From Veillonella denticariosi JCM 15641 (GTDB lineage Bacteria > Bacillota > Negativicutes > Veillonellales > Veillonellaceae), in NCBI RefSeq assembly GCF_002959855.1, contig NZ_PPDB01000001.1, positions 310,001 to 374,000 on the forward strand: DNA of 64,000 nt, read 5' to 3'. A model generated the notes under the pieces. The model was given only the letters and a program-made list of their open reading frames with translations, ran no database searches and had not been told where the DNA came from. Made by a program: the position numbers and the translations under genes. Shown here one piece after another: positions 36,116-39,743 of the stretch (within the stretch, counting starts at the first letter, position 1; each line of letters starts with the position of its first letter).

Positions 36116-36185
36116 AGAGTTTTGATTGACGTATGTATTAATTTATACAAAGTTCCATTATTAGTATATAACAGAGGTGAATAAA

Positions 36186-37091
36186 ATGGCAGTATCTGCA
36201 GATTTATACAGAACTTTTTTAGGTGTCGGTTTGTATTTATCTTTTTCTCGTGCAGCGAAGGAACTCGGAGTGTCTCAGTCCGCCATCAGTCAAAGTATTA
36301 AACAGTTGGAAGGGGAACTCAATATGCCCCTTTTCGTGAGGACTACAAAATCCGTAGGCTTTACACCGGAAGGCAAGGAACTTTTTGATACGGTGGCAAA
36401 GGCGTTTTCCATTTTGGATAATGGCGTTACTCAACTGCAGGAACGTGTGAATCAGGCTTATGAAAGTTTAAATCTGGCAGCTACGGATACTTTGTGCCGT
36501 CATTTTCTGTTGCCCTACTTTCATAAGTGGCAGTTACAGGAAAGCGAAATCGGTTTGCATATCATCAATAAACCGTCACCGGACTGTGTGCAGCTGGTGC
36601 TCGATAAGGAAGCGCAGTTAGCCGTGGTCAATGATTACGAAGGATTGCGGGAAAATCCTCAGCTGGAGGTGACCACTCTAGCGACAATTCAAGATGTTTT
36701 TGTAGGCGGTCATGAATATAAAGGGGCCGGATTCTTTGATCAGGGGCGCCTTCTGAATGAACCGATGCTTTTACTGCAAAAGGGAACTGCAAGTCGAACA
36801 TTCTTTGATGAAGTGACTCATGGTGCATGCCGCAAGCCTCGTTTTGAACTGGGCAGCGTCGATGTGTTGCTGGACCTCGTGGAAATCAACATGGGGATTG
36901 CTATGTTGCCGAGTCATGTGGTACAGGAAAAAATGCAGGAAGGCGCTATCGTACGTATTGATACGGATATCCCTGTGCCGACTCGCGATATCGTCCTCGT
37001 ACGCTCCCGACTGGTGCCGCAATCGGAAGGAGCTGCACGATTTACGGCGCTGCTTGTAAATAAGGAAAGTAATCGGGATAAAATTTTATAA
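36186..37091 (+). CDS. LysR-family transcriptional regulator
   Basis: 301 residues. The N-terminal winged HTH is clear (FSRAAKELGVSQSAISQSIKQLEGELNMPLFVRTTKSVGFTPEG, about residues 18-62). The effector domain from about 90 onward is standard LysR. The start is ATG 36186 behind GAGGTG; the GTG at 36177 overlaps that RBS. It diverges from purL with a repeat-rich gap, so self-regulation and purL control are both possible (inference). The ligand is unknown. A strong terminator separates it from xpt. Confidence 0.92.
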   Translation: MAVSADLYRTFLGVGLYLSFSRAAKELGVSQSAISQSIKQLEGELNMPLFVRTTKSVGFTPEGKELFDTVAKAFSILDNGVTQLQERVNQAYESLNLAATDTLCRHFLLPYFHKWQLQESEIGLHIINKPSPDCVQLVLDKEAQLAVVNDYEGLRENPQLEVTTLATIQDVFVGGHEYKGAGFFDQGRLLNEPMLLLQKGTASRTFFDEVTHGACRKPRFELGSVDVLLDLVEINMGIAMLPSHVVQEKMQEGAIVRIDTDIPVPTRDIVLVRSRLVPQSEGAARFTALLVNKESNRDKIL

Positions 37092-37282: not shown

Positions 37283-37858
37283 ATGGAATTATTAAAGCAA
37301 CGCATTCGAGATGAGGGCATCGTCCTCAATAATCGCGTGTTAAAAGTAGATGGATTTTTGAATCATCAAATCGATCCGCATTTGTTCAAAGCCATCGGAA
37401 AGGAAATTGCAGATCGCTATCGTGACGCGGGGGTACAACGGATTGTCACCATAGAAGCATCGGGTATCGCATTAGCATTGATGGCCGCATTGGAACTCGA
37501 TGTACCGTTGGTATTTGCGCGCAAGAAAAAATCGATTCTCATGGTGGATGAGGTATATCATTCCGTTGTCTATTCCTATACAAAGGAAGAAAACTATGAA
37601 ATCACGATTTCCAAAAAGTTCTTGCCTGCCGGTGAAAAGGTATTGATTATCGATGATTTCTTGGCATCCGGTGAAGCCGCTATGGGGCTGGCTAAATTGG
37701 TGCAGGAAGCAGGTGATGAAGTGGTAGGTATGGCGATTGCCATCGAAAAATCCTTTCAGCCGGGACGTGAACGCCTTGAAAATGCGGGATTCCGTGTAGA
37801 GTCGTTAGTGCGTATCAAAGAATTCAAGGATAATGGTTGTGTATTTTTAGAAGACTGA
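37283..37858 (+). CDS. xpt: xanthine phosphoribosyltransferase
   Basis: A purine salvage enzyme making XMP from xanthine and PRPP. 191 residues, the usual Xpt length. Seen: LNNRVLKVDGFLNHQIDP near residue 16, TIEASGIALALMAALEL near 56 (base and PRPP contact region), FARKKKSILM near 78 and the PRPP loop VLIIDDFLASGEAAMGL near 123-139. CGGAGGT precedes the ATG. Followed by two YbjN-like genes, 38 nt to the first of them, on the same transcript as far as can be seen. Confidence 0.95.
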   Translation: MELLKQRIRDEGIVLNNRVLKVDGFLNHQIDPHLFKAIGKEIADRYRDAGVQRIVTIEASGIALALMAALELDVPLVFARKKKSILMVDEVYHSVVYSYTKEENYEITISKKFLPAGEKVLIIDDFLASGEAAMGLAKLVQEAGDEVVGMAIAIEKSFQPGRERLENAGFRVESLVRIKEFKDNGCVFLED

Positions 37859-38794: not shown

Positions 38795-38866
38795 AACATG
38801 ATGTAGCTGGTTTATAAATATATAGCTGCTGATGTATAAAAGAATATATCGTTCGGAAATTAAATA

Positions 38867-38906
38867 AAAGAGACAATCGATTCAATAAATCGACTGTCTC
38901 TTTTTT
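38867..38906 (+). terminator. xpt operon terminator
   Basis: AAAGAGACA-TCGATT pairs with AATCGA-TGTCTCTTT with one mismatch, then T6. Confidence 0.92.
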
Positions 38907-39096
38907 GTATACTGGAAACTATATGATAAATATGATTATATCCTGTCATAAAAGACTTTGATGACACTGTTTCAATCGAAGTGAAGTATCTGATTTATTA
39001 TGTGGATTCTTCATGGATCTTATTTCTTAATCATTCGATTGTTCGATATATTATGAACAATAACAAAAACTTATATATTAATTATTCGAAAAAGTA
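38907..39096. other. AT-rich gap before the purE promoter
   Basis: No gene or conserved RNA is seen. There is no match to a purine riboswitch aptamer. Confidence 0.5.
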
Positions 39097-39125
39097 TTGA
39101 CCGAAGGTTTTGTGAGTGTTACAAT
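39097..39125 (+). promoter_or_regulatory. purE operon promoter
   Basis: TTGACC (39097-39102), an exact 17-bp spacer and TACAAT (39120-39125). The expected start near 39132 puts the leader ORF at about +20. Confidence 0.8.
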
Positions 39126-39150
39126 TTAGCTACCAAAAGGAGGTAGCACC

Positions 39151-39243
39151 ATGAAACACTTTTATCAACAATTAACAAGTGAATCTTCGGAGGCTATCCG
39201 TGCGCATTTGACCCGGTCTGTTCAGGCTGGGCTTTTTTATTAG
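39151..39243 (+). CDS. 30-residue leader peptide upstream of purE
   Basis: An ATG at 39151 follows a very strong Shine-Dalgarno (AAAAGGAGG, 39135-39143). The frame reads MKHFYQQLTSESSEAI, then RAHLTRSVQAGLFY, and stops at TAG 39241-39243. That TAG is part of the purE Shine-Dalgarno TAGGAGG, so translation is coupled. The frame's last third encodes an intrinsic terminator (39212-39238). This layout suggests a leader peptide whose translation decides whether the terminator forms. There is no run of a single rare codon. The function is inferred; no homologue is known to me. Confidence 0.55.
   Translation: MKHFYQQLTSESSEAIRAHLTRSVQAGLFY
39212..39238 (+). terminator. candidate attenuator inside the purE leader ORF
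   Basis: CCCGGTCT (39212-39219) pairs with AGGCTGGG (39224-39231), eight pairs of which two are G-U, around a GTTC loop. A C and six T follow (39232-39238). It lies 14 nt before the purE start and inside the leader peptide frame. Confidence 0.65.
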
Positions 39244-39251
39244 GAGGTTAT

Positions 39252-39743
39252 ATGAAGGTCGGTATCATCATGGGCAGCAAGTCCGATTTGGACATAATGA
39301 AGAAGGCATCTGCCGTATTGGATGAATTTAATATTCCCTATGAAATGGTTATTGCTTCGGCTCATCGTACGCCGGAGGCTGTGCGGTCCTTCGTAACACG
39401 CCTCGAAGCGGAAAGCGCTATCGCCTTTATTGCCGGTGCCGGTGCGGCGGCTCATTTACCGGGGGTTGTGGCAAGCTTTACAACGCTTCCCGTTATCGGT
39501 ATTCCTCTTAATGCGACGGCTCTTAAGGGCGTCGACTCATTACTTGCCATCGTTCAGATGCCGTCCGGTATGCCTGTGGCGACGATGGCTGTGGACGGGG
39601 CTAAAAATGCGGCTCTCTTTGCGGTACAGATCGGTGCCGCTTTCAATAAAGAATTAAAAGAACGATACGAGCAATATCGAAAGGATATGGCGGATAAAGT
39701 GTTAGCGGACAATGAGGCATTGCAGAGCGAACTCGGTAAATGA
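39252..39743 (+). CDS. purE: N5-carboxyaminoimidazole ribonucleotide mutase
   Basis: 163 residues. It rearranges N5-CAIR to CAIR in purine synthesis. Seen: IIMGSKSDLDIM at the start (GSxSD), IASAHRTPEAV near residue 36 (SAHRTP is the class I form) and the PVIGIPLNATALKGVDSLLAIVQMPSGMPVATMAV stretch. First gene of purE-C-F-M-N-H-D. Class I PurE normally needs PurK to make N5-CAIR, but no purK is in the cluster. The RBS TAGGAGG overlaps the leader ORF stop. Confidence 0.96.
   Translation: MKVGIIMGSKSDLDIMKKASAVLDEFNIPYEMVIASAHRTPEAVRSFVTRLEAESAIAFIAGAGAAAHLPGVVASFTTLPVIGIPLNATALKGVDSLLAIVQMPSGMPVATMAVDGAKNAALFAVQIGAAFNKELKERYEQYRKDMADKVLADNEALQSELGK

Follow-up and report, generated by a model that had tools for sequence, protein, structure and literature searches.

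How is the purine operon of Veillonella controlled? Operons for de novo purine synthesis are textbook cases of control by PurR and by riboswitches. In the 64,000 nucleotides of Veillonella denticariosi DNA analysed here (the window), purE is followed by purC, purF, purM, purN and purH, and it is preceded by a promoter and a short reading frame that runs through an intrinsic terminator. An earlier note on this DNA took the arrangement for translation-controlled attenuation and saw neither PurR nor a purine riboswitch. Promoter, leader frame, terminator and purE all lie where the note had placed them (Table 1). What, then, is the leader for?

The purE leader and where it occurs

The leader frame encodes MKHFYQQLTSESSEAIRAHLTRSVQAGLFY. 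The terminator hairpin, CCCGGTCT-GTTC-AGGCTGGG (-10.9 kcal/mol), is followed directly by CTTTTTTATT, and its 5' arm begins 61 nt past the leader start codon. As a bare consensus match the promoter is unremarkable (4 sites versus 4.1 expected in a region scan), but it is conserved in relatives despite this ordinary score. The fold of the whole window leader has ordinary stability (z -0.87). A local hairpin masks part of the leader Shine-Dalgarno (SD) sequence in the window species; as a conserved feature of the leader set it is not significant (P = 0.16). Two details in the earlier note, the overlap of the leader stop with the purE SD and the translation of the frame through the whole hairpin, are correct for the window and are shared by only part of its genus.

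Table 1. Coordinates in the window of the elements in and around the purE leader
Feature	Position	Strand	Basis or remark
Third upstream PurBox-like element, centre TTCG 39042-39045	39037-39050	.	conserved; putative function
PurBox 1, centre TGAA 39054-39057 (CGAA in sister species L085)	39049-39062	.	PurBox pattern
PurBox 2, centre TTCG 39085-39088, 17 bp past PurBox 1, adjoins -35	39080-39093	.	PurBox pattern
Promoter TTGACC-17-TACAAT with TG extension (extended -10)	39097-39125	+	kept in relatives
Local hairpin GCUACC/GGUAGC around leader SD	39129-39147	+	window species and L085
Leader SD GGAGG	39139-39143	+	sequence
P1 5' arm GGUAGC-A-CC, SD/start region	39142-39150	+	weak in window, significant over 20 leaders
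Leader ORF, 30 codons, ATG 39151 to TAG 39241-39243	39151-39243	+	translation
P1 3' arm GG-AG-GCUAUC, 13-23 nt before terminator	39189-39198	+	pairing
Intrinsic terminator, hairpin 39212-39231 plus CTTTTTT	39212-39238	+	compensatory changes in relatives
purE SD AGGAGG, overlaps leader stop TAG	39242-39247	+	sequence
purE, first gene of the operon	39252-39743	+	TIGR01162

The surroundings of the operon also deserve mention. The purine salvage gene xpt (xanthine phosphoribosyltransferase; 37283-37858) lies upstream of purE, so that salvage and de novo genes are neighbors; two unassigned ORFs stand between them, and a gene for a LysR-type regulator (36177-37091) adjoins xpt. A strong 18-bp hairpin at 38866-38904, with a T-run on the minus strand and an A-rich flank, is likely a bidirectional terminator that ends the upstream genes.

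We cast the geometry of the leader into a detector, which demands an SD, a start codon and an ORF that has 14 codons or more and stops at or within a terminator hairpin 45 to 95 nt downstream. On both strands of the 64 kb, which hold 31 terminators, it finds exactly one case, the purE leader. It finds none in 160 dinucleotide shuffles of leaders and none at the purE genes of 40 Negativicutes genomes from other orders. The detector recovers 27 of the 32 positive leaders, the five missed ones having weaker U-runs, but it was tuned on positives, so that independent evidence comes from its negative counts alone. For comparison we gathered 56 different regions upstream of purE, almost all of them from the order of the window. 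The 32 leaders with the arrangement belong to two families: all 15 distinct ones of the window's genus and one from a sister genus (L008) on one side, and 16 from the Megasphaera family on the other. The ratti/seminalis genus, most of the Dialister family and a fourth family lack it. As far as sampled, the geometry is limited to the order of Veillonella. A covariance model (R1) run on 380 Negativicutes genomes matched strongly (77 bits or more) only at Megasphaera-family purE. Its remaining matches (at most 35 bits) resemble generic terminators and were rejected, and a 23-bit match in L008 was dropped.

Some leaders are more elaborate. In L006 (G008), about three tandem copies of the terminator unit GCTGAGCATTTTTTTATTGTCATGAA follow the leader ORF, some 150 to 200 nt upstream of purE. 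The Dialister-type purE leaders L125 (G035), L126 (G033), L128 (G030) and L132 (G034) have two terminators each: the first comes directly after the promoter (GCUUGUGC...GCGCAGGC-U6), and a frame of 40 to 55 codons follows that ends in or after the second. These leaders vary the theme of the attenuator, possibly with a further sensor placed ahead of it.

Pairing of the leader SD with the segment before the terminator

Compensatory changes mark two helices in the leader. In the Megasphaera set, 8 of the 11 terminator pairs and 2 of the 9 pairs of a helix that we call P1 have changed on both sides. P1 joins the SD region (e.g., AGAUGCACU) to the last codons of the frame (AGUGUGUCU). For this set RNAalifold picks the SD helix and the terminator unaided, and 85.6% of the named structure is paired, against 35 to 49% in slid controls. 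In Veillonella and L008 the partners of P1 are other words in a shifted register: GGUAGC/GCUAUC, GGYGUUA/UAACGCU, GACGCAC/GUGCGUC (L008) and GAUAUCC/GGAUAU (L013). When the arms were swapped among 20 leaders, the mean energy rose from -12.0 kcal/mol for native pairs to -9.76 ± 0.48 kcal/mol (P = 5e-5; Veillonella P = 2.5e-4, Megasphaera P = 0.015), P values that are optimistic because the leaders are related. Most leaders taken singly do not reach significance, and P1 is weak in the window species (-10.4 versus a swapped mean of -9.8 kcal/mol).

The pre-terminator segment lowers the computed accessibility of the start site. The unpaired probability from SD to start is 0.277 in native leaders and 0.398 ± 0.028 when the 3' segment is shuffled (0 of 60 shuffles as low), and the mean accessibility of the SD is 0.51 in the early transcript and drops to 0.33 after the pre-terminator segment has been made (P = 0.005); L006, L107 and L118 to L120 give no support in this accessibility test. 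Pairing of the leader ribosome binding site with the stretch immediately ahead of the terminator, marked by covariation, is a feature newly seen here.

Is P1 then a gate whose closing is regulated by a ligand, a protein or a small RNA, as in a riboswitch, with leader translation merely its output? P1 encloses the ORF, and in the Megasphaera set it covaries together with an internal stem (columns 33-43/53-63), which would suit such a device. Leaders of this family carry an internal stem UUUAUGGACUG/CGGUUUGUAAA. However, no Rfam family matches the leader or its relatives above the gathering threshold, none is credible in the leader at an E-value of up to 5, and the purine, PRPP, ZTP and other riboswitch covariance models leave leader and relatives unmatched, which bears out the earlier note on riboswitches. 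The sequence inside P1 differs between families and R1 misses the Veillonella leaders, so there is no common aptamer. We consider a gate of this kind unlikely. The open-access literature, to which our search was confined, yielded no prior description of this purE leader. A survey of structured noncoding RNAs that covers Veillonella reports gltD, ldh2 and ilvD motifs, and its main text does not include purE (PMC8632094).

An open frame, a drifting peptide and a probable second layer of control

The frame of the leader is preserved in a peculiar way. Frame 0 is open in all 21 representative leaders, while the +1 and +2 frames are open in 4 and 6 of them, and the distance from start codon to hairpin stays within 58 to 79 nt. 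The peptides, of 19 to 35 residues, drift strongly in sequence. The stop codon may lie before the hairpin, at its base, inside it or just past it: most Megasphaera leaders stop 6 to 13 nt before the hairpin core, L002, L003 and L092 stop inside the loop, and others stop at the base or upstream. L109 and L113 differ by a 1-nt indel that shifts the frame, and yet both finish at the conserved UCUAANUGA, which provides stops in two frames. The case that speaks against the earlier note's reading, a hairpin kept after its frame is lost, was sought among the purE leaders and did not occur; the peptide sequence alone drifts. Because the frame is open, the spacing is held, the peptides drift and the stops fall near the hairpin, comparison of the leaders indicates that what is preserved is the arrival of a translating ribosome at the hairpin and not the peptide.

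This bears on the idea that a ribosome stalls on the nascent peptide or at specific codons, in the manner of trp/his or TnaC, and thereby blocks the terminator in response to an amino acid or metabolite. A leader ORF with a terminator is the geometry that such a mechanism needs, residues 5 to 7 read LW(T/A) in most Megasphaera peptides, with a synonymous TTA/CTG difference in L117, and several Veillonella peptides contain Gln pairs. Nevertheless, the leaders hold no run of regulatory codons and no residue or codon common to the set, Trp is absent from the Veillonella peptides, and the frame moves between close Megasphaera species while the RNA segments stay. Nor does the consensus fold of either set predict a mutually exclusive antiterminator. 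Stalling is thus improbable, about as much so as a regulated gate or slightly more. The segment from ORF to hairpin is not enriched in purines (0.46 to 0.60 purine; mean A 0.30, mean G 0.22), and sensing of amino acids or purines by composition was rejected for lack of a common codon and of a purine bias. As a separate observation, Megasphaera-family peptides (L014 to L017, L021, L107, L112 and L118 to L120) are rich in cysteine, which makes up 5.8% of the residues over all leaders; the P1 arm GUGYGU accounts for part of this richness but not for CHCKLRC or SCCCAHS.

The earlier note was wrong to find PurR control absent. The window's genome encodes PurR (TIGR01743, 333 bits; cut-off 258.7), and a pair of PurBoxes stands just upstream of the -35 element. 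PurR exceeds the cut-off in all genomes of two genera, that of the window and the ratti/seminalis genus, and also in the fourth family; it does not in G001 (g2), g3, the Dialister family or any Megasphaera-family genome. In Bacillus subtilis, PurBoxes have a central CGAA/TTCG and a 16/17-bp spacer and lie just upstream of the -35 element (PMC8789054). A pair with this spacing precedes the -35 element in 20 of 22 leaders from PurR-encoding genomes of the two Veillonella genera and in none of 15 leaders from genomes without PurR. Of the 22 Veillonella-type leaders, 21 have a third element with its TTCG at -55/-56 relative to -35; in the remaining one, L006, no more than 22 nt can be seen. Elsewhere in the genome, a PurBox scan stayed at control level except before purR itself (L140), where a PurBox-like pair at G000:C6:3430-3463 lies directly upstream of the gene and suggests that purR may be autoregulated as in B. 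subtilis.

The ratti/seminalis genus (L009 to L012, L034, L100 and L104) has three PurBox-like elements and a short purE leader that lacks the ORF and terminator, a state that could reflect loss of the attenuator or the time before it was acquired. In their distribution the layers are modular: PurR only, PurR plus attenuator, or attenuator only. The existence of PurR and PurBoxes, also in a genus that has them without the attenuator, could mean that the terminator is an ordinary leaky one which sets a fixed pur level (or makes a small RNA end) beside a bystander frame, with PurR alone in control. Against this, all 21 representative leaders have the frame open, with an SD and near-fixed spacing, and Megasphaera relatives keep frame and terminator without PurR or PurBoxes, which makes this the least probable of the alternatives.

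A proposed pyrBI-like attenuator and its relation to known systems

How might the leader work? We propose that leader translation governs transcription attenuation in a ribosome-mediated, pyrBI-like manner and that translation probably prevents termination in vivo. It is the best-supported reading, to which the frame, its spacing, the compensatory changes in the terminator and the covarying SD helix all contribute. To this extent the earlier note's attenuation stands, with purines a less certain candidate for its signal. The polymerase would leave the promoter, make the leader SD and start codon and, about 60 nt later, the intrinsic terminator. Without a ribosome near the polymerase, the hairpin would form and transcription would end before purE. 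A ribosome that has loaded and follows closely would cover the 5' side or the base of the hairpin and allow read-through into the pur operon. A transcript without an early ribosome would shut its own start through P1 as the terminator forms, and the outcome would be a race between ribosome loading and the polymerase. In Veillonella the attenuator would act below classical PurR repression at the PurBoxes, in the Megasphaera family alone.

Work on E. coli agrees with parts of this scheme. There, the translating ribosome almost completely represses a terminator that lies a few nucleotides past a stop codon, while a terminator in the initial 100 bp of an ORF is active if the polymerase does not pause (PMC4824070). 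The purE-leader hairpin falls within this distance, so termination should be the default, and the switch would be a slowed polymerase or fast loading. The pyrBI operon uses the same logic of a ribosome close behind and no termination (PMC10135430). Counting against the scheme, the early stops of most Megasphaera leaders imply that the ribosome would only touch the base of the hairpin.

What the attenuator senses is the more speculative part. Low purine nucleotides may slow the polymerase and so turn the operon on, the least certain step of the mechanism, and purine nucleotide level read through polymerase speed is a tentative candidate for the signal. An NTP-sensing tract is not visible, because the leader, unlike the U-rich pyrL, is not purine-enriched. 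It is conceivable, at a similar level of confidence, that loading and polymerase race on a gated start, that the peptide is uninformative and that the device replaces PurR in Megasphaera and acts in addition to it in Veillonella. With such a race, the operon would be on only upon early ribosome loading or when the polymerase is slowed, e.g., by low ATP or GTP.

To our knowledge, leader-ORF attenuation is unreported for any de novo purine operon. If confirmed, the purE leader would be a purine counterpart to the pyrimidine type of "repression without a repressor," in didermic Firmicutes, a group in which transcription-translation coupling has been little tested. Neighboring genera with PurR only, both layers or the attenuator only amount to a natural experiment and suggest that the two control layers are interchangeable over evolution.

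Among known systems, E. coli pyrBI with its leader pyrL is closest. Both have a short ORF that extends to or past an intrinsic terminator ahead of a nucleotide biosynthesis operon, no regulatory codon run, and a hairpin that a close ribosome would block. One mark of the pyrBI type is an SD-led ORF whose translation would reach an intrinsic terminator before the first structural gene. The purE leader has such an ORF, and we call it pyrBI-like in geometry and a candidate member of the type in the strict sense. The pyrL leader has 44 codons; here the operon is a purine operon, the ORF has 19 to 35 codons, no U-rich or purine-rich pausing tract is visible, an extra helix covers the leader SD, and in Veillonella a PurR layer lies above. 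Control of pur in B. subtilis likewise combines PurR at a PurBox pair, 16/17 bp apart and upstream of the -35 element, with a second layer of attenuation. That layer is a G-box riboswitch attenuator in B. subtilis, whereas here, with no purine riboswitch matched, it is a leader ORF with a terminator. The trp and his attenuators of E. coli share the leader peptide, the terminator and a ribosome-dependent choice, and the SD of trpL, too, pairs with a distal part of the leader; they differ in having regulatory codon runs and an alternative antiterminator hairpin. Finally, Salmonella mgtM/mgtP, which sense ATP and proline, also tie leader ORF translation to the pace of the polymerase and to purine nucleotide level (PMC3641672), but mgtM does so with conserved adenines and alternative stem-loops, while in the purE leader the terminator overlaps or abuts the end of the ORF.
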